Positions 28,383 to 44,246 of a DNA stretch of 64,000 nt are shown here, in pieces (position 1 is the stretch's first letter; every line of letters starts with the position of its first letter). The notes beneath the pieces are model-generated. The model was given only the letters and a program-made list of their open reading frames with translations. It was not told the origin of the DNA and did not search any database. The stretch comes from Rhabdophis nuchalis (lineage: Eukaryota > Chordata > Lepidosauria > Squamata > Natricidae), in contig CM077643.1 of NCBI GenBank assembly GCA_039707465.1, positions 68,247,105 through 68,311,104 of the forward strand, in the 5' to 3' direction. The position numbers and the translations under genes are program-made.

Positions 28383-28415
28383 TGTGTGTTAGTATTATGA
28401 GCTGATCAATAAATT
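28383..28415 (-). mobile_element. 3' remnant of the hammerhead SINE
   Basis: The plus-strand text GAGCTGATCAATAAATTA, preceded by TGTGTGTTAG, matches the 3' end of the SINE copies at 30036 and 30367 (GAGCTGATCAATAAATAAAT after a GT-rich tail). Only about 30 bases survive before the microsatellite. Confidence 0.5.

Positions 28416-28444: not shown

Positions 28445-28480
<36 letters not shown>
28416..28480. repeat. TATACA / ACAT microsatellite
   Basis: Lies directly beside the left arm of the Penelope-like fold-back and probably marks its insertion point. Confidence 0.9.
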
Positions 28481-28550
28481 TGTTTTCTGAGGTTTTCGCG
28501 GGTGTTTGTATGTAGTCTTTGGTTGTTCGGGTTTTCTCCCGCGTAGAATT

Positions 28551-28610
28551 GGAAGTATCTTCACGACGTTTCGATGAAATCTCATTCATCATCTTCAGGC
28601 TGGTGCTTCC
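28551..28610 (-). ncRNA. Hammerhead-like motif, Penelope left arm
   Basis: Mirror copy of the motif at 29645-29704. On the minus strand: GGAAG, CACCAGC, CUGAAGA, U, helix II GAUGAA / UUCAUC with loop UGAGAU, GAAACGUC, then GUGAAGAUA and CUUCC closing distal stem I. Confidence 0.55.
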
Positions 28611-29410
28611 GGCTTGGTGCTTCCAGGAGCAATGTGAGATCTCAGCCGGTTCCTCTTTTTAACTGCCAGTGGGGGTGTGACCTGATTGGGTGGGAGCTTG
28701 GCTGCATTCTGATTGGGTGGAGGTGTGTTCTGATTGGTAGGGGGTTTGGCTGTGCTCTGATTGGATGGGAGTTTGGCTGTGCTCTGATTGGATGGGGGCG
28801 TGTTCTGTTTGGGTGGGGGCCTGGTTGTGCTTGTGTTAGTCTGAGTGGCAGAGGAATTTGACCTGGTGAGCTGCATTGCTGTTGCTTGGCTTCGCGTTTG
28901 TGGTCGTACCACATCTCCGTGGTGGGCATCAGTTTGCTTCATGTATGGATTGGAGGGGTTTAAAGTGGCTAATAATGCAGCTTTGGTCTGGCTTCTGGTT
29001 TGTGGTCGGGCTTCTGATTTGTGGTCATCATCGGTGTGGGTTTGGGTTTGCTTTTTGCGTGGATGTGTGATAGTGACATCCTGTGTGGTTTTCGTGAGTA
29101 TGGGTCTGGTATCATTCTTTGCGTTAGGGACTCGTTTGTCAGTGAGGGCAGGTTTCCAAATGGCTGGTAGGCGGGAGGTATCATCTCGTTTATTCATGCT
29201 GTGTGGCCGCTTTTCTATCTCAATAGCTTCTCTGATTATTCTGTTGTTATAGTGTTCAATTTTGGCAATAGTTCTGGTCTTTTTAAAGTCTATATCATGT
29301 CCTGTGGCTTTGAAGTGTTGCTGATTCTGTCTGTGGTGCCTTTTATGTATGGGAGGAGGGCTTTGCCAAGCAACAGCAATGCAGCTCACCAGGTCAAATT
29401 CCTCTGCCAC
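28595..29410 (-). pseudogene. Penelope-like endonuclease C-terminal fragment (271-codon open frame)
   Basis: After about 30 residues the frame reads HFKATGHDIDFKKTRTI, KIEHYNNRIIREAIEIEK and LPAIWKPAL. This is the C-terminal half of the Penelope GIY-YIG endonuclease, including the REAIEI segment with its conserved glutamate. The catalytic GIY/YIG strands upstream are missing. The first 15 residues come from the antisense of the right arm, so the start codon is artificial. The remainder is basic and low complexity, with PxNQ repeats encoded by the CCAATCAG array. It stays open for 271 codons but cannot encode a working protein. Confidence 0.75.
28682..28812 (-). promoter_or_regulatory. Array of six CCAAT-type boxes, left arm
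   Basis: CTGATTGG (plus text; CCAATCAG on the minus strand) occurs at 28682, 28709, 28730, 28757 and 28784, with a CTGTTTGG variant at 28805. Spacings are 27, 21, 27, 27 and 21. CCAATCA is the NF-Y consensus. The array lies about 70-130 bases upstream of the hammerhead-like motif in element sense. Confidence 0.45.
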
Positions 29411-29442
29411 TCAGACTAACACAAGCACAACCAGGCCCCCAC

Positions 29443-29573
29443 CCAAACAGAACATGCCCCCATCCAATCAGAGCACAGCCAAACTCCCATCCAATCAGAG
29501 CACAGCCAAACCCCCTACCAATCAGAACACACCTCCACCCAATCAGAATGCAGCCAAGCTCCCACCCAATCAG
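29443..29573 (+). promoter_or_regulatory. Array of six CCAAT-type boxes, right arm
   Basis: CCAATCAG occurs at 29464, 29491, 29518, 29539 and 29566, preceded by CCAAACAG at 29443. Spacings are 21, 27, 27, 21 and 27, all multiples of three, so the same repeat also encodes PxNQ peptides. It could be an NF-Y-type promoter array, or simply a coding minisatellite. Confidence 0.45.
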
Positions 29574-29644
29574 GTCACACCCCCACTGGCAGTTAAAAAG
29601 AGGAACCGGCTGAGATCTCACATTGCTCCTGGAAGCACCAAGCC

Positions 29645-29704
29645 GGAAGCACCAGCCTGAAGATGATGAATGAGATTTCATCGAAACGTCGTGAAGATAC
29701 TTCC
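29645..29704 (+). ncRNA. Hammerhead-like motif, Penelope right arm
   Basis: In order: GGAAG (29645-29649); C2.1/G1.1 and G2.2/U1.2 pairs; CUGAAGA (29657-29663); an extra U; helix II GAUGAA / UUCAUC with loop UGAGAU; GAAA (29683-29686); a minimal stem III A-C/G-U; predicted cleavage after C29690; and CUUCC (29700-29704) closing distal stem I. CUGANGA and GAAA are the hammerhead core. The one extra base between A9 and helix II departs from the consensus, so activity is uncertain. Confidence 0.55.
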
Positions 29705-29844
29705 AATTCTACGCGGGAGAAAACCCGAACAACCAAAGACCTACATACAAACACCCGCGAAAACCTCAGAAAACATATATATCAAGTGTTTATGTCAGAG
29801 CACCTGGTATGCCCAAATATGGGAGAGAGGGAGCATACTGCTGC

Positions 29845-29990
29845 CCAACTCATGATTTAATGGTTAAGGCAACTGCCTGATATTTAAACAGCCTGAGTTT
29901 GAATCACAGTAAGGGTATGGCTATCTGATGAGAGCTAAATAGCTCAAAATAGATCTAAAATAGTCTCCCTTTATTTATTATCTATCAGCA
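29845..29990 (+). mobile_element. tRNA-Arg-like SINE with hammerhead, copy 1
   Basis: The head has a diverged A box (TGATTTAATGG, 29853-29863) and B box (AGTTTGAATCA, 29896-29906), arranged as in a tRNA-Arg gene (AATGGTTAAGGC D-arm). The hammerhead follows at 29911-29970, then a TTTATTTATTATCTATCAGC tail. It faces copy 2 in inverted orientation across a GT-rich spacer (30004-30034). Mutations in both boxes and the ribozyme core suggest it is older than copy 2. Confidence 0.65.
29911..29970 (+). ncRNA. Hammerhead ribozyme, degraded core
   Basis: AAGGG pairs with CCCUU at the outer end. Stem I is GGCUAU (29919-29924) / AUAGUC (29960-29965). The core CUGAUGA (29925-29931) is intact. Helix II is GAGCUA / UAGCUC with an AA loop. 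G12 is changed to A (AAAA at 29946-29949) and U16.1 is A, so stem III and catalysis should be lost. The first stem I pair (U-A here, G-C in copy 2) is a compensatory change. Confidence 0.7.
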
Positions 29991-30064
29991 CAAATGCAAC
30001 ACTATATATGTGTGTGTGTGCGTGTGTGCGTGTTAGGTTTTTGAGCTGATCAATAAATAAATTA

Positions 30065-30120
30065 GGGAGACTAGTATAGATCTATTTCGAACTTTTTATC
30101 TCTCATCAGCTAGCCATACC
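30065..30120 (-). ncRNA. Hammerhead ribozyme, type I, intact core
   Basis: Minus strand: outer pairing GGG / CCC; stem I GGCUAG / CUAGUC (30110-30115 with 30069-30074); core CUGAUGA (30103-30109); helix II GAG / UUC (reduced from GAGCU / AGCUC by two substitutions); GAAA (30085-30088); stem III AUA / UAU with a GAUC loop; and A17, with predicted cleavage between 30075 and 30074. All invariant core positions (C3, U4, G5, A6, G8, A9, G12, A13, A14, A15.1, U16.1) are present. Copy 3 preserves the better AGCUC strand. Confidence 0.78.
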
Positions 30121-30127
30121 CTTAATG

Positions 30128-30182
30128 GGATTTGAACCGGAGCTGTATTACATATTAGGCAGAAGCCTTAGCCATTATGCCA
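30128..30182 (-). promoter_or_regulatory. Internal pol III promoter (A and B boxes)
   Basis: TGGCATAATGG and GGTTCAAATCC on the minus strand, at the spacing of a tRNA gene type 2 promoter. These are the clearest such boxes among the copies here. Confidence 0.6.
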
Positions 30183-30261
30183 CCAGGTTCTCTTCCTGAT
30201 CAGCTGAGACAGGAGGATAAGTATATACTTGTGTCACAACACCCTGTTAAGCCCCAATTAA

Positions 30262-30313
30262 GGGAGGAAGCATACTGCTTTCCTTTTCTGCCTTTCGGCT
30301 CATCACCAGAGAC
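30262..30313 (-). ncRNA. Second, degenerate hammerhead-like hairpin
   Basis: Minus strand: GG, UGAUGA (30300-30305), a perfect GCC-GAAA-GGC hairpin (30290-30299), one extra A, then GAAAA and a hairpin AGGAA(A)GC / GCUUCCU. The arrangement matches a hammerhead but C3 is G. It belongs to the unassigned sequence upstream of SINE copy 2, and a piece of the same hairpin recurs near 29831-29845. Confidence 0.3.
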
Positions 30314-30366
30314 CATCTAGACAGAAAGCTATGAGTTCTGTTGTGTACTTTTTTTTATATGCGTGT

Positions 30367-30432
30367 AAGGTTTTTGAGCTGATCAATAAATAAATCAGGG
30401 AGACTAGTATAGATCTATTTCGAGCTTTTTAT
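30367..30432 (-). mobile_element. tRNA-Arg-like SINE, copy 3 (5'-truncated inside the ribozyme)
   Basis: Contains the SINE 3' end on the minus strand: the helix II 3' strand AGCUC, GAAA, stem III AUAGAUCUAU, A17, stem I CUAGUC, then CTGATTTATTTATTGATCAG. It stops within the helix II loop, so CUGAUGA is missing. It shows the unmutated helix II strand. Confidence 0.7.
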
Positions 30433-30449
30433 TTATGTGTAATATCCAA

Positions 30450-31260
30450 TGGATTCAAAAGAAAAACAATTACCAACCTAATCCAAAAAGAGACACACCC
30501 CTAGAGCCAAGACACAGAACAGGAAAATTGCATTGCCCTCCTCCCTTACATCAAAGGCTCCACAGGCAAAATCAGCAAGATTCTCCACAAGCACAATATC
30601 AAGACAGCCTTCAACACTGACCAAAAAATAACCAATATCCTAAGGAATCCCAAAGACAAGATCCAGCTAGAAAACCAAGGAGTCTACAAAATTTCATGTA
30701 AAATCTGCCCTGCAACTTACATAGGACAAACTAATAGAAGAATAAATGCATGCATCGCAGAACATAAAAACTCAGTAAAAAAAATCTTAAAACCTCATCT
30801 CTCTATCAACACTTCAAAGCTACAGGACATGATATTGACTTTGAAGGAACTAAATTGATCTCCAAAGCTGAACAGCTCAACAGGAGAATAATCAGAGAAG
30901 CCATTGAAATAGAGAAACAACCTAACAATATGAACAAATGTGATGACACCTCCTGCCTACCAGACATCTGGAAACAAGCACTGGCCAACAGACGAGCCCC
31001 ACCCACTACCCAAGCCGTTGAAATACAAAATAAAGAGAAACATACAAATAGGATCAATCAGCATCAATCTACCAATCATGATACAGCTGCACAGCCAATC
31101 AACCCACTCACAACAACAGAGTCAGCACTCCCCCTCCCACCAAGATTTAAAGAAGGGCGGCACCTATGCAGCCACAGACTGAAGCCTGAAGATGGCAAGT
31201 GAGACCTTGCCAAAACGTTGCAAAGACAATTTCATTCTTACACAGGAAAACACACGAATA
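30450..31260 (+). pseudogene. Penelope-like element: GIY-YIG endonuclease region and terminus
   Basis: Pieces in shifted plus frames read CIALLPYIKGSTGKISKIL, TAFNTDQKITNIL, NQGVYKISC, then TYIGQTNRRI and AEHKNSV. This is the RT-endonuclease linker and the GIY-YIG core (GVYKI and YIGQT with the catalytic arginine region). It continues HDIDFEGTKLI, NRRIIREAIEIEK and LPDIWKQAL. The RT domain is not present. Several frameshifts break it. Downstream are two CCAATCA boxes (31072, 31095), a hammerhead-like motif and the TACACAGGAAAACAC terminus. It is related to but clearly distinct from the element at 28481. Confidence 0.8.
31184..31222 (+). ncRNA. Hammerhead-like motif, second Penelope locus
   Basis: GC, CUGAAGA (31186-31192), an extra U, helix II GGCAAG / CUUGCC with loop UGAGAC, then AAAAC-GUU-GC. 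Helix II sequence is unrelated to that of the 28-kb locus but fully paired. G12 is mutated to A and the cleavage base is U. The extra base after A9 is shared with the other families. Confidence 0.45.
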
Positions 31261-32385: not shown

Positions 32386-33170
32386 CGAGGGTGATTCAAT
32401 AAATAAGGTGAATTTTTCTGTATAAGGACTTTTAATACAGATAAAAGCTTACTTTTTTGTGTGTGTGTTTTACTACTTTTTCACATGGATTTAATTTCTT
32501 ATGCAGATTACAAAAAAACCTTGAGAGTTTTACCGATTAACAAAGATGGCCGACCAAGAAGCATGCTCCAGGATTGAACAGCTGTCAGATATCAAGCTTT
32601 TGGTTGCTGAAGGGTGCAAACCCGTTGAAAGTCATAGGAGAATGTCAACTGTGTATGGTGCCACATGTTTCAGCAAAACAAATGTCTACAAGTGGGCTAC
32701 ATTGTTTAAAGAAGGACGGAGCAGTGTTGAGGATGAAGGCAGGCCTGGGAGGCCTACAGAAGTGAGGTCTCCTGAGGTGATCGAATCAGTCAATGACCTC
32801 ATTCAGTCTGACAGAAGGGTGACAGTATATGACATTGCAAGGACTTTGAGCTTATCTGTTGGGACAGCACACAAAAATGTCCATGATGACCTTGGCTACT
32901 CGAAGGTCAGCTGCAGGTGACAACGCAAGGCCTCACACAGCAGCCCAAACGGTGCAGACCATCAACGAGCTGGGCTGGGAACTGCTCCCTCATCCCCCTT
33001 ATAGCCCAGACCTTGCCCCTTCAGACTTTCACCTGTTTGGTCCCTTGAAAGCGTTCACGAGAGGCACGAAGTTTGAAAGTGACGATGAAGTCAAAAGTGT
33101 TGTGAGTGATTGGTTGAGACATCAGTCTAAATATTTTTATGCTGACCAGGCTACCGAGCGTTCCATCAGC
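32386..33170 (+). mobile_element. Mariner DNA transposon, internally deleted and 3'-truncated
   Basis: The 5' terminal inverted repeat starts CGAGGGTGATTCAATAAATA after a TA target site (32384-32385). A 160-base leader precedes the transposase start at 32546. No 3' inverted repeat is found: transposase sequence runs straight into L2 sequence at about 33165-33174, and no mariner remainder was seen after the L2 end near 36026. Mariner members with this CGAGGGTG start are common in animals. Confidence 0.8.
32546..33170 (+). pseudogene. Mariner transposase pseudogene (first catalytic Asp deleted)
   Basis: The first frame (32546-32920) gives the N-terminal helix-turn-helix domains, with KWATLFKEGRSSVEDEGRPG and DDLGYSKVSCR. 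The sequence then jumps, with a frame change near 32918, to GDNARPHTAAQTVQTINELG, LPHPPYSPDLAPSDFHLFG and KYFYADQ. The two retained aspartates (DNARPH and PSDFH) are separated by 34 residues, the DD34D spacing. The segment holding the first aspartate, about 120 residues in related proteins, is missing. The junction has short GCTGCAG/GTG-like microhomology. It cannot encode an active enzyme. Confidence 0.88.
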
Positions 33171-34176
33171 CGCGGGGGGGGGGGGTGTGGCGGTCATTGT
33201 CAGGGATGGTCTTGAGCCGCGAGAGACCACTGTGCCTCAGACAGCCGGTTTTGAGTCCCTCTGTGTGAAGTGGGGCCATGGGAGGCAGTTGGGCTTGCTG
33301 CTTATTTACTTGGCTCCCCGCTATGTAACAGCAGCCCTGCCCGAGCTCCTCGAGAGGATCGCCGAGGTGTCAGTTGATATGCCCAGGCTATTAGTCATGG
33401 GGGACTTCAACCTGCCATTGGCGGGCGAGACTTCCGAAGTAGCTTGGGAGTTCATGGCCTCCATGACGGCCATGGACCTGACCCAAGTAACTCAGAGTCC
33501 CACTCACGAGGGAGGACACACACTGGATCTAATTTTTGTCTCTGGCCAGTGGATGAGTGATCGAGGAAGAGGGGATCTAGCCATCATACCCCTGTCATGG
33601 TCCGATCACTCGTTACTCCGGCTCGACTTTCCCACCGCTACACCCCACCGCGGGGAGGCGGAACCAGAGATTCCTAGATGGTTCCACCCCAGGCGCCTGA
33701 TGGACCCGGAGAGGTTTCAAAGGGAGCTTGGGCCATTACCTGCGACCTTGACCCGCGGCTCGACTGAGGACCTAGTGGCCGCATGGAATATTGCGGCCGT
33801 GGGGGCCTTGGACCGAGTTGCGCCCTTGCGGGCTCTCATGCGGTGCCGACTCTCCCAGGCACCTTGGTTCTCCGAGGAGCTGAGGGTGATGAAATGCTGC
33901 ATGAGACGCCTAGAGAGCAGGTGGAGATCCACACGGGCCGAATCTGACCGAACACAGGTAAGAGCCCACTTAAGGACTTACCTTGTGGCGCTGAAAGCGG
34001 CCAAACGTAATTATTGTGCCGCTCTCATCGCATCCGCAGATAACCGCCCTGCCGCCCTGTTTGGGGTGACCCGCTCCCTCCTTCAACAGAGGCCGCGGGA
34101 AGCCCCTCTACAGGGTAGAGCAGAGGAATTTGGAGAGTATCTGCAGGATAAAATCGCTCAGATCCGGAGCGATTGA
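33171..34176 (+). pseudogene. L2 ORF2 endonuclease domain (APE type)
   Basis: The open frame has GVAVIVRDGLEPR, LLVMGDFNLPLAG (the GDFN motif), HTLDLIFVSG and SWSDHSLLRLDF (the SDH catalytic motif), followed by a long linker ending KIAQIRSD. APE endonuclease nicks the target to prime reverse transcription. The frame ends at TGA 34174-34176 through a one-base shift. The correct continuation (TATENTLGGLPEAG) is in the next frame. Confidence 0.85.
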
Positions 34177-34177
34177 C

Positions 34178-35810
34178 TGCCACCGAAAATACTCTAGGGG
34201 GATTACCTGAAGCAGGTCTTGAGACAGTTTTATGGGGGGAGTTTGACTCTGTTACTCCTGATGACATGGACAGGTTGATGAGATGACTAAAGGCCACCAC
34301 ATGTTTATTGGACCCATGTCCCTCCTGGCTTGTACTGGCATCCTGGGAGGTCACACGAGGCTGGCTCCAGGAAATAGTGAGGGCATCTTTGAGTGAGGGG
34401 TTCTGGCTGGCTGCTTTGAAAGAGGCGGTGGTGAGACCCCTCCTCAAGAAGCCTTCCCTGGACCCAGCGTTGTTGGTAAATTATCATCCAGTCTCCAACC
34501 TTCACTTTCTGGCGAAGGTTGTAGAGAGTGTGGTGGCACAGCAGTTCCCTCGTCACCTGGAGGAAAGTGATTATCTGGACCCACGCCAGATCGGTTTCTG
34601 ACCTGGGCACAGCACCAAAACGGCATTGGTTGCATTGGTAGATGATCTCTGGAGGGCCAGGGATAGGGGCTGTTCCTCTATCCTGGTCCTATTAGACCTC
34701 TCAGCGGCTTTTGATACCATTGACCATGGTATCCTACTGCACCGACTGGAGGGGTTGGGGGTGGGAGGCACTGTTTTGTGGTGGTTTGCCTCCTACCTCT
34801 CCGGTTGGTCGCAATTTGTGTTGGTAGGGGGGCAGAGGTCGACCTCAAGGCCCCTCATATGTGGGGTACCTCAGGGGTCGGTCCTCCCGCCACTCCTGTT
34901 CAACACCTATATGAAGCCGCTGGGTGAGATCATCCGTGGTTTTGGGGTAGAGTACCACCAGTACGCTGATGACACCCAGTTCTACATCTCTACCCCAAAC
35001 CACCCCAATGATGCCATTGAGGTGATGTCCCAGTGCCTGGAGGTCGTACGGGCCTGGATGGGGAGTAACAAACTCAGACTCAACCCGTCCAAGACCGAGT
35101 GGCTGTGGTTTCCGATGTCCCGGTACAGTCAGCTCATTCCAACACTGACCATTGGGGGCTAGTCATTGGCCCCCGTGGAAAGGGCACATAACCTAGGCAT
35201 CCTCCTGGATCTCCTGCTGTCCATGGATGACCATGTGATGGCCGTGGCCAGGGGGGCTTTTTTCCAGCTTCACCTGGTTCGTCAGCTACGGCCCTTACTT
35301 GACCGGGATGCCCTTCGCACAGTGACTCATGCTCTCGTGACATCCCGTCTGGACTATGGAAATGCTCTCTATATGGGGCTCCCCTTGAGGTGCACCCGAA
35401 GGCTACAGTTAGTGCAGAACCCGGCCGCGCGGGGGATCTTGGGAGCCTCACCACATTCCCATGTAACACCTCTTCTGCGCGAGCTGCACTGGCTGCCTGT
35501 GGTCTTTCGGGTGTGCTTCAAGGTGTTGATCATCATCTTTAAAGTGCTCCATGGCACGGGTCCTAGTTATTTGCGAGACCGCCTCCTACCCCATACATCC
35601 CTCCGACCGATCCGCTCCCACAGAGAGGGTCTGCTCCGGGTGCCAACAGCTGGGCAATGCCGGCTCACGATGCCCGGGGGAAGGGCCTTCCCTGTGGCGG
35701 GCCCTGCCCTCTGGAACGATCTACCCCCCGATTTTAGGAATATCACAGACCTCCGCCTCTTCTGTCAACAACTAAAAACACACTTTTTTCGCTTAGCTGG
35801 CCTGGCTTAA
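34178..35810 (+). pseudogene. L2 ORF2 reverse transcriptase and C-terminus
   Basis: One frame carries the whole RT with three in-frame stops: TGA 34284-34286, TGA 34599-34601 and TAG 35160-35162. Motifs in order are SEGFWLAALKEAVVRPLLKK, VLLDLSAAFDTIDHGILLHR, GVPQGSVLPPLLF, YHQYADDTQFY (YADD at 34962-34973), LNPSKTEWLWF, LDYGNALYMGLP, RELHWLPVVFRVCFKVL, GPALWNDLPPDF and LFCQQLKTHFF. With the upstream shift, four lesions over about 880 codons make this inactive but young. Confidence 0.9.
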
Positions 35811-41830: not shown

Positions 41831-42706
41831 GCAGCTGAATGATGGCCCACTTCTAGTTTCTGGATGGTCTTCAGATGCATCCCCATGTACATCTTATTGC
41901 GATAATCTACATATTAAAGAATGAATGACTATGAGAAGAAAATACGGATTCAACTAAGGTGCTATTGGCACACTATAGTAATGGTGAAAAGGCCATTTTG
42001 GCCACAATGCCATCTTCTTTTCAAGTAGGATGTTGATCCAGGAGGTTCCCTATATTTCACACTAGTTCTATTTGGGGAAACTTAACCACATTCAGAAATT
42101 TTCCAGATAGTGGGTAAAACAAAAAGTCACTGCTACTCCATCATGTCAGGATTGAGTCTAAGACTGTTTCCTTCCATCCATACCTTTACAGGTATTGGGA
42201 TATGCTTGATAGCATTGTTTGTCAGCCCAGAGATGACTTTTATCAATGCAGCCATGGTATTAGAACACTGTGTCAGCAGATGAGCTTACTTAGCAATTTT
42301 ATGTACATAAGAAATACGAGAGGAGAGAATGTCAAACCCTCTGGCTCATCACAGATAAAGGAGCAACGATGACTAGAACTGGGCTGAGAGAAAGGAAGAC
42401 AACCACTGTGGACTCTCCTCCCCGCCCCCAGGCCTCAAAGATGTTTAAATGTAAGTCCATAGTTAACAAATGAAGTTCAACATATTATATCAATCTAATA
42501 ACACAATAAATTTATCTTATTTTATATTCTAGTGTTGTATCATTCTTCTCCCCCGCCCTGCTCTTCCTTCTTACACACAGATTCATACATCCCTACACCC
42601 CATCTAGAATTACTTTATTTAGTGGAGTACATATGCTTATGAAAGCTCTTGTCACAGCAAACAAGATACACATCTGGTATTTTACCGGTGAACATTGACT
42701 TTGATA

Positions 42707-43408
42707 CAGAGGCGTAGCGTGGGGGGTGCAGGGGGTGCCGGCCGCACCGGGCGCAACATCTGGGGGGGCGCGCTCGCACCGCGCACCCCGCCTGCCTCAG
42801 GCCGGCCTCCCGCCCCAGCCCCGTCCCGCCGCCGCCGCCGCCCCGACAAAGTTTTGACACTCGCGGGAAGGGAGGCAGAGGCGCCACGGAGCTTTCCCTC
42901 CTGCGGCATCGAGGGAGCGCGGAAAGGCGGGAAAAGGCCAGGCGGCGCCGAACGGGGAAGCCTGGGCGGAGGCGGCGGAGAGAGCCCGGGTGGAAGTCGC
43001 TCGCTCCGGCGGCCGGAGGGGTCCCCTACTCAGCCCACCCGGGGAGGGTCGAGAATGCGAGCGAGGGGCCGGGAAGGAGGAGGAGGCGGAGGAGGAGCTC
43101 CCGCTGCAAATTGATACCCCGGCCGAGCAGGCGGAGGGGGGAGGAGGAACCCCCCCCGCCAGACACCCCCTTCCGCTCCTCATCCCCCTACACCCCCACC
43201 CTTTCCCCCGGGACCCTCCAGCGCCGCGCCCCCTCCCCGCGCAGGGCGTCCCCTCCCGCTCCTCCCCCGCCCCCGATGCGCGCACTTTTCCTTCTCTTCC
43301 CACTTTTATTGTGGTTTGAAAGCGGAGCGAGGGACTATCTGGGGGAGGGTTAGGGGGCGCAAATTACTTGCCTTGCCCCGGGTGCTGATAACCCACGCTA
43401 CGCCACTG
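42707..43408. mobile_element. hAT non-autonomous element with GC-rich, CpG-dense cargo
   Basis: Termini are CAGAGGCGTAGCGTGGG and CCCACGCTACGCCACTG, an inverted repeat with one mismatch. The 8-bp duplication CTTTGATA is exact (42699-42706 and 43409-43416). The 702-bp interior is very GC- and CpG-rich inside AT-rich DNA, with GCCGCC and GGAGGCGGA repeats and poly-C tracts. Overlapping frames on both strands (for example 42797-43303 minus, 168 codons) are low complexity (Pro/Arg/Gly/Ser), lack domains and most likely reflect GC content. No transposase is present. The interior could be a captured CpG island or 5' exon. Confidence 0.9.
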
Positions 43409-43416
43409 CTTTGATA

Positions 43417-44246
43417 ACCATGCACTTAATCTCCACCTAGCAGAAACGAACTTTGGAAAGATAGGTTGACATTGTTAGAGCAAAATAACAAATATACAGC
43501 TTCTGTCAAGCTTGTGGCTATCTTTAACTTACTATAATTCCCTCCCACCACTCTAAGACACACAATGGGAGAGGAGAAACAATAATGAAAGAATTCTAAT
43601 GACAGAGTTGGGGAAACTCATGGCATTTCCTTAAGAAGATTTACTAGGATCTGTGTGGGGACAAGGCCAATGGAAGCAGATTAAAAAACAAAAAACAAAG
43701 TGGCCTAGGTAAGAAATGACAGTTGGCAACTGTCTCTCCCTCATGGTTGTACACATCATTTATACTTACCACCACTTTTTGTTGTTGTTTTATGGAGGGA
43801 GGTTTTTTTTACCTGGATCAAACAAACATTCTTTTGGCTTGTATTCTCCTCCCTTTTAATCTCTTGCTTTGGATAACATAGTTAGAGGAAGGATACTGAG
43901 ATATCTGAAAGCCATTGTTAAATTTCATTTGGCTTAATAGAGTATTTATTAATTTATGTCTGTTGTTTTTGTCCCATGATTCAATCTTGACTCATGGCAT
44001 CTGCTTGTGCAAGTCCTGGAAGATTTTTGGGAAGATTTTTTCCAGAAGTGATTTGCCCTTGCCTTCTTCCGGGAGTTGAGAGTGTGTGACTAGCCTGTAA
44101 TTCACCATATTTTTGTTTCTACCAGATGCCCAGGGTTTCTCAAGCTGTAGGGTGTACCTTCCTTGGTGAGCTGTAGGCAGATTCCAGGGGACATGTGGAG
44201 ACCCATTTAATTTCATTGTTGCAAAAAAAAAATCTTTTCCAAATGT
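43417..44246. other. Non-coding interval with a possible degraded SINE
   Basis: The 43975-44130 stretch loosely resembles the SINE body at 22845-23042 (GGAAGATTTTT, GAAGTGATTTGCCCTTGCC) but no tRNA head can be read. Otherwise nothing was recognised. Confidence 0.25.

Follow-up and report, generated by a model that had tools for sequence, protein, structure and literature searches.

The best fit among known systems for the repeat described here appears to be the metazoan non-LTR retrozyme, in this case in a sauropsid. According to the available sections of PMC7229834, axolotl retrozymes (331 and 353 nt; 330/350-bp units) and newt satellite hammerheads form tandem units of 330 to 350 bp, contain a type I hammerhead whose helix III is very short and whose palindromic tetraloop favours dimers, are low in GC and present in very many copies, and share their genomes with Penelope elements, as is also the case here. 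The same sections place those forms in amphibians and demonstrate circular RNA, whereas the present repeat is from a sauropsid, has a head with A and B boxes, and is described from DNA sequence. A word search of the main text of that report returned none of 'reptil', 'lizard', 'snake', or 'SINE'. As far as the available part of PMC7761336 goes, metazoan retrozymes have no conserved motif that betrays an autonomous mover.

Like those retrozymes, the repeat has a conserved type I hammerhead, non-coding tandems in the range of about 150 to 450 bp, and a GC content below 50%. The first-pass annotation of this locus had named the schistosome Sm-alpha repeats and the retrozymes as parallels, and the retrozymes were the closer of the two. 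SMalpha carries a pol III promoter. In the portion of PMC8490949 available, SMalpha and W36.2 are SINE-like repeats with a type I hammerhead, as here (W36.2_W001 is 335 bp), and their host is a flatworm; they are likened to the present repeat by description only. Poseidon of Anolis resembles it in the placing of the hammerhead, upstream of an AC-rich site at which reverse transcription starts, in tandem or partial-tandem copies, and in the extension of both strands (PMC11167929). In the Anolis Penelope, the enzyme cleaves the two strands of the target and extends each of them, its cDNA starts internally at an AC-rich stem loop downstream of the hammerhead, and the hammerhead is dispensable for insertion in vitro (PMC11167929). 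Penelope-like elements encode a reverse transcriptase and an endonuclease (PMC11167929), whereas the stop-free frames listed for the units of lineages B and D of the present repeat reach at most 64 residues, indicating that these units are non-coding.

Two further groups were compared. Amniote hammerheads in print are intronic and 3′-UTR ones, in the available parts of PMC6155905 and PMC7761336. The intronic HH9 is of type I, as here, and is described in the parts of PMC6155905 and PMC3088659 available as a conserved single-locus type, in contrast to the multicopy repeat reported here. In the host genome, HH9 gave one match over gathering (88.7 bits, C1:378970325-378970406, plus strand; 58 of 145,076 candidates scored), and it was found in none of 14 control genomes. 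Beta-keratin (PF02422), a family that marks sauropsids as HH9 marks amniotes, had 31 matches in the host genome, each on contig C20, and was likewise absent from the controls. The Sauria/Squam1, Squam2, and Squam3 SINEs are squamate, have a promoter-like head, and in some cases yield tandem arrays, according to the excerpts of PMC10702118, PMC13295347, and PMC10058329. Active Squam1 is described there as about 360 bp with an (ACCTTT)n end, whereas the present repeat ends in AACACACA or GTTGTGACACAA. Identity with Sauria/Squam1 was rejected because the length and the 3′ end differ, the two being set apart by comparison with these published descriptions only. Among the literature matches listed, there was no such reptile element and no amniote retrozyme, and the surveys PubMed 20705646, 21081661, and 20651741 may mention one; six sequence strings of the element had no match in the literature text searched.

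The locus lies in a window of 64,000 nucleotides of Rhabdophis nuchalis DNA, the whole stretch that was analysed, and its features are collected in Table 1. The core, stem I, stem III, AUA triplet, and cleavage position of copy 2 all read as the first-pass annotation had claimed (minus strand, 30115-30069), with CUGAUGA, GAA, stem III AUA/UAU closed by the loop GAUC, stem I GGCUAG/CUAGUC, and predicted cleavage between 30075 and 30074 of the minus strand. Stem II is weak and has a mismatch in GAGAU/AGUUC. In copy 1, the first pair of stem I is U-A rather than G-C, as proposed, and the core itself is broken because A replaces both G12 and U16.1; its A and B boxes appear degenerate by eye. The promoter-like head is not common to all three copies, as had been thought, since copy 3 is truncated at its 5′ side inside stem II. 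Nor are copies 2 and 3 separate insertions: the 333 bases between their cleavage sites make up one repeat unit, and these bases recur in the fetched loci. A profile built from the three copies recovers all of them (E values of 9.4e-52, 1.1e-49, and 8.6e-19), and the next match has an E value of 0.35.

TABLE 1 Positions, in the window, of the retrozyme copies and of the adjoining Penelope-like pair
Feature	Position	Strand	Remark
Tandem 1.2-mer of the retrozyme unit (copies 3 and 2, single piece)	30027..30432	-	One alignment, unit positions 309-714
Full 333-nt unit, flanked by two predicted cleavage sites	30075..30407	-	
Type I hammerhead of copy 2, intact core, stem II with one mismatch	30069..30115	-	
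Copy 2 hammerhead extended past the internal loop UAU/U to the outer part of stem I, AGGG/CCCU	30064..30122	-	
Copy 3, first hammerhead in the 1.2-mer, 3′ part only (truncated inside stem II)	30402..30432	-	
A box-like TGGCATAATGG (unit 226)	30172..30182	-	Motif only
B box-like GGTTCAAATCC (unit 270)	30128..30138	-	Motif only
Tail, cleavage site to first preferred 3′ end (unit about 48)	30027..30074	-	
Second preferred 3′ end, position within the unit (unit 172-187)	30221..30236	-	
Copy 1, subfamily A-like, head degenerate	29845..30003	+	
Copy 1 hammerhead with broken core: A in place of G12 (29946) and of U16.1 (29958)	29919..29965	+	
Fragment of the second half of the unit, head to head with copy 1	29785..29847	-	90% to L058, 92% to L052
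Penelope-like 3′ region, first of inverted pair	28462..28874	-	5′ part reaches about 29365, near where the pair meets (by reading)
Penelope-like 3′ region, second of inverted pair	29381..29795	+	98.6% to the first over 415

Genome-wide, the repeat is present in thousands of copies of one tandem-forming unit of 333 to 347 nt. The unit, 333 nt in the window, consists of the promoter-like head, the type I hammerhead, an AC-rich end, and further bases. For lineages A and B, a 20-base anchor had 5,781 genome matches, and its reversed form had none. The unit of lineage D aligns with that of the window round the whole circle at 66%, and its arrays contained seven units of 346 and four of 347 bases, all 11 of them 98.3 to 100% alike. 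Of the 7,924 matches to the D anchor, the first 100 contained 19 same-strand steps of 336 to 347 bases. The GC content of the units is 0.408 and 0.419, and their circular folds are unremarkable (z of -1.3 and -0.4). Because the unit is 333 to 347 nt long and tandem, the element is better named a retrozyme with a promoter-like head. It is probably a non-autonomous, non-coding retrozyme family with an internal A/B box head and a type I hammerhead, moved by Penelope elements.

The insertions were analysed in 107 aligned pieces from 48 stretches, the window included; L032, which overlaps L031, was left out here and from the junction counts. A 20-base anchor located in the hammerhead had served to select loci L024 to L071, and its bases are consequently fixed in the anchor copies. 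The predicted cleavage site was spanned by 87 of the 107 pieces, and within 3 bases of it 2 pieces began and none ended. Twelve pieces were at least one unit long, and 7 contained two cleavage sites.

Several trends were seen among the junctions. First, the 3′ ends were concentrated at two places, with 51 of the 107 at unit positions 30 to 57 and 21 at 170 to 190, compared to uniform expectations of 9 and 7; the remaining 35 stopped at neither. Second, a simple-repeat run was present within 60 bases of 34 of the 72 preferred ends with full flanks, compared to 241 of 5,000 random places. Third, opposite-strand neighbours separated by a gap of 30 or less were more often head to head (26) than tail to tail (8; p of 0.003). 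The same was true for lineage D, with 11 versus 2 among the first 100 of 7,924 matches (p of 0.02), and the A/B anchor matches listed showed no significant excess (5 versus 2, p of 0.45; 99 of 100 listed places counted; the other, C1:40401943, has no close neighbour). Such a pair is found in the window, where 29847-29785 (minus) and copy 1 are head to head. Finally, the same 5′-to-5′ arrangement was found for Penelope-like 3′ regions, both in the window, where the pair lies next to the retrozyme copies (Table 1), and in locus L024 (2795-2639 minus/2796-2917 plus, and 2520-2383 minus/2516-2563 plus). Single Penelope-like matches were found in L053 and L058.

Penelope-like elements appear to occur in the same genome as the retrozyme. 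A broken Penelope-like coding stretch in the window (30505-31202, plus) contains GVYKI..YIGQT, which we take to be a GIY-YIG motif. Positions 30505 to 30858 matched two GIY-YIG-named proteins of the lizard Phrynocephalus forsythii, one at 75% across 50% of the query and the other at 83% across 44%; a Wolbachia bin protein had the best E value (57% over 77%), and the Pfam GIY-YIG match to the coding stretch was below the cut-off (E of 0.059). The Penelope-like 3′ regions also contain a minimal hammerhead-like sequence of the Penelope type, AUGAUGA...CGAAACGUC with A for C3, in a predicted fold at 29645-29720 (plus) and 28612-28537 (minus).

Because the insertion signature of the retrozyme matches that of the Penelope-like pairs and the Anolis biochemistry, Penelope machinery is likely to be what moves it, the signature being observed and the enzyme deduced. 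It is rather unlikely that another enzyme, from a LINE of the CR1, L1, or RTE type, does so and that the Penelope elements are bystanders. The 3′ ends of the retrozyme and of the Penelope elements have little common sequence by eye, and LINE endonuclease and reverse transcriptase remains are found within the window, both of which agree with a LINE mover. However, the internal AC-rich ends and the 5′-to-5′ pairs fit what is described for the Anolis Penelope (PMC11167929), and the Penelope-like pairs of the window and L024 are arranged in the same way.

The promoter-like head raises the question of whether the repeat is instead a tRNA-derived SINE, as the first-pass label 'tRNA-Arg-like SINE' implied, in which a hammerhead happens to be present, which is copied by a LINE from a linear pol III transcript that begins with the head, and in which the ribozyme has a side role. 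The A and B box motifs are present, as that label requires, and lie at the usual spacing (44 and 45 bases in the units of B and D, motif only). Fourteen of the 107 pieces begin at unit positions 205 to 235, where the head starts, and the commonest 3′ end is just beyond the hammerhead, as would be expected of a SINE. The tRNA part of the label was not confirmed: ARAGORN recognised no tRNA in the window or at 10 loci, and Rfam none at an E of 1 or less in 20 loci, searches that a diverged tRNA could escape. Moreover, the head-starting pieces are a minority, and four of them (L025, L027, L030, and L038) have flanks in common and appear to be duplicates of a single insertion, whereas 32 of the 107 pieces continue upstream of the head. 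The latter count also bears out the proposal that the head and the hammerhead belong to one repeat rather than to two joined by chance. The pieces with two cleavage sites and the arrays of 346- and 347-base units are likewise at odds with a linear SINE, which we regard as improbable. T runs numbered 6 in the aligned pieces compared to 223 A runs. The scarcity of T runs was considered as a sign of pol III transcription and dropped, since the Markov null for having no TTTT is 0.57 for B and 0.55 for D.

The check proposed in the first-pass annotation, whether genome copies keep the core and the stem pairing, was made in the host genome, and the hammerhead withstood it. An exact pattern of 35 places covering the core, stem II, and stem III, with stem I excluded and one pair each of stems II and III left free, had 13,089 matches, and the reversed control had none. 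Forms that differ by CpG decay at 11.1/12 were fewer, with 3,798 matches for T-G (U at 11.1) and 2,023 for C-A (A at G12). The mismatched A-C combination in stem III had just 35 matches, although the pair was free in the pattern, and two A-C forms of stem II occurred among 100 listed places of the C-A 11.1/12 form. By eye, U at 11.1 looks inherited in one large subfamily, and activity may therefore not have been needed there.

Covariation was analysed in an alignment of 65 distinct rows. A set of 100 nhmmer matches was reduced to 93 by removal of cut and duplicate ones and to 71 that were nearly whole, and the 61 distinct rows among these were joined by 4 from L072 and L073. By regular expression, the core was intact in 33 of 45 rows holding the anchor and in 16 of 26 rows without it. 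In the alignment, 93.2% of the cells pair, and the covariation score was 0.165 compared to 0.033 to 0.081 in slid versions, with none of 500 shuffles as high. Changes on both sides were found in 6 pairs across all four helices (31 cells), such that stems I, II, and III all have compensatory changes. Only a handful of lineages carry them (C, D, and copies like copy 1 and L052), and they therefore represent few events. Two other measures were weak: the pairs changed on both sides numbered 6 versus 3.7 in shuffles (49 of 500 as high, and 8 in one slid version), and the further pair types 19 versus 17.8 (159 of 500 as high).

These data also bear on whether the repeat is a satellite spread by unequal exchange, in which the hammerhead is a relic of an older retroelement. 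Array units 98.3 to 100% alike could be obtained by exchange alone, and many cores are broken, as a relic would be. Against this, 72 of the 107 pieces end at the two preferred sites and just 7 have two cleavage sites, the intact matches outnumber both CpG-decay forms, and both sides of stem pairs have changed in lineages. A satellite is thus very improbable. A chance look-alike in one repeat copy, with which Rfam scores under gathering would agree, is refuted by the genome counts (13,089 versus 0 reversed) and by the strict hammerhead descriptor, whose sole match in the window was copy 2 and which gave 1 match in 200 first-order Markov simulations of it.

As for these Rfam scores, HH9 aligns end to end with copy 2 at 21.2 bits (E of 0.0033 for 181 bases) and matches copy 1 at 14.0 bits (E of 0.67), both below gathering, and the whole window had no Rfam match above gathering. 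HH9 or Hammerhead_1 accounted for 17 of the 83 Rfam matches at an E of 1 or less (20 of the first 28 loci), the best with 33.2 bits and none over gathering; most of the others were to microRNA models.

Stem III is short, and its sequence, AUAGAUCUAU, is perfectly palindromic, being its own reverse complement; for this reason we propose that cutting would occur mostly as dimers. For the three-copy consensus, the predicted dimer fold is a double hammerhead with a shared stem III of 10 pairs, at -45.6 kcal/mol compared to -35.6 kcal/mol for two monomers. The dimers of subfamilies B and C behave likewise, in energy and in hammerhead pairing, and the minimum-energy folds of the monomers and the dimer fold of subfamily D differ from the full hammerhead. 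In the full fold of copy 2, the tail AUCAGCU (30050-30044, minus) may pair with the core AGCUGAU (30111-30105, minus), which could hold the ribozyme off.

For the Penelope-moved retrozyme, we infer cleavage, dimer action, circles, polymerase III transcription, and Penelope mobilisation as the steps of its cycle. Tandem or inserted units would be transcribed, probably by RNA polymerase III, and the hammerheads would cut the multimeric RNA to unit-length pieces, mostly as dimers, as their predicted structure suggests. A host ligase may then close the circles, as in published retrozymes. A Penelope-like reverse transcriptase with a GIY-YIG endonuclease could prime cDNA at the AC-rich internal sites of RNA that is either circular or uncut, using each of the two strands of a target that is AT-rich or a microsatellite. 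Such a process would leave the signature that was observed, that is, copies crossing the cleavage site, two favoured 3′ ends, and frequent 5′-to-5′ inverted pairs.

According to these results, a sauropsid genome harbours a hammerhead element that is multicopy and forms near-identical arrays, and the insertion signature of this element points to Penelope elements as the mover. If this is true, the long-missing partner of the metazoan retrozymes would be named, and a head of the polymerase III type would link retrozymes to SINEs. If true, the mobile elements that gave the amniote intronic hammerheads would also have in this element a relative of the present day. The reading in full, an amniote retrozyme of 333 to 347 nt that is promoter-headed, cuts as a dimer, borrows the Penelope machinery, as its 5′-to-5′ insertions suggest, and is related to the source of the intronic hammerheads, might well be right and is put forward tentatively.

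Searches beyond the host yielded little. Scans of viral collections gave 4 and 17 matches, with at best a 14-base BLAST match to the copies, and further such scans gave none; a scan of genome contigs gave 2 bacterial pattern matches, and no candidate came from predicted-protein searches, in which the queries were a sense frame over the D hammerhead and an antisense frame from unit B. One IMG/VR contig (L009, plus strand) has two hammerhead-like motifs, at 843-900 and 1140-1198, about 300 bases apart.

Other sequences were noted in the window. At 28386-28414 (minus), 29 bases resemble the retrozyme tail at 90% and adjoin a microsatellite and a Penelope-like end. LINE remains occupy several frames at 33118-35810 (plus), with endonuclease and reverse transcriptase matches (Pfam PF03372 and PF00078). 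The stretch at 32525-33215 (plus), where Pfam gave weak helix-turn-helix matches only, presumably represents the remains of a Mariner-like transposase. Finally, a GC-rich stretch at 42600-43500 (0.498 over 42001-44000) contains, by reading, what may be a first exon that codes for a signal peptide.
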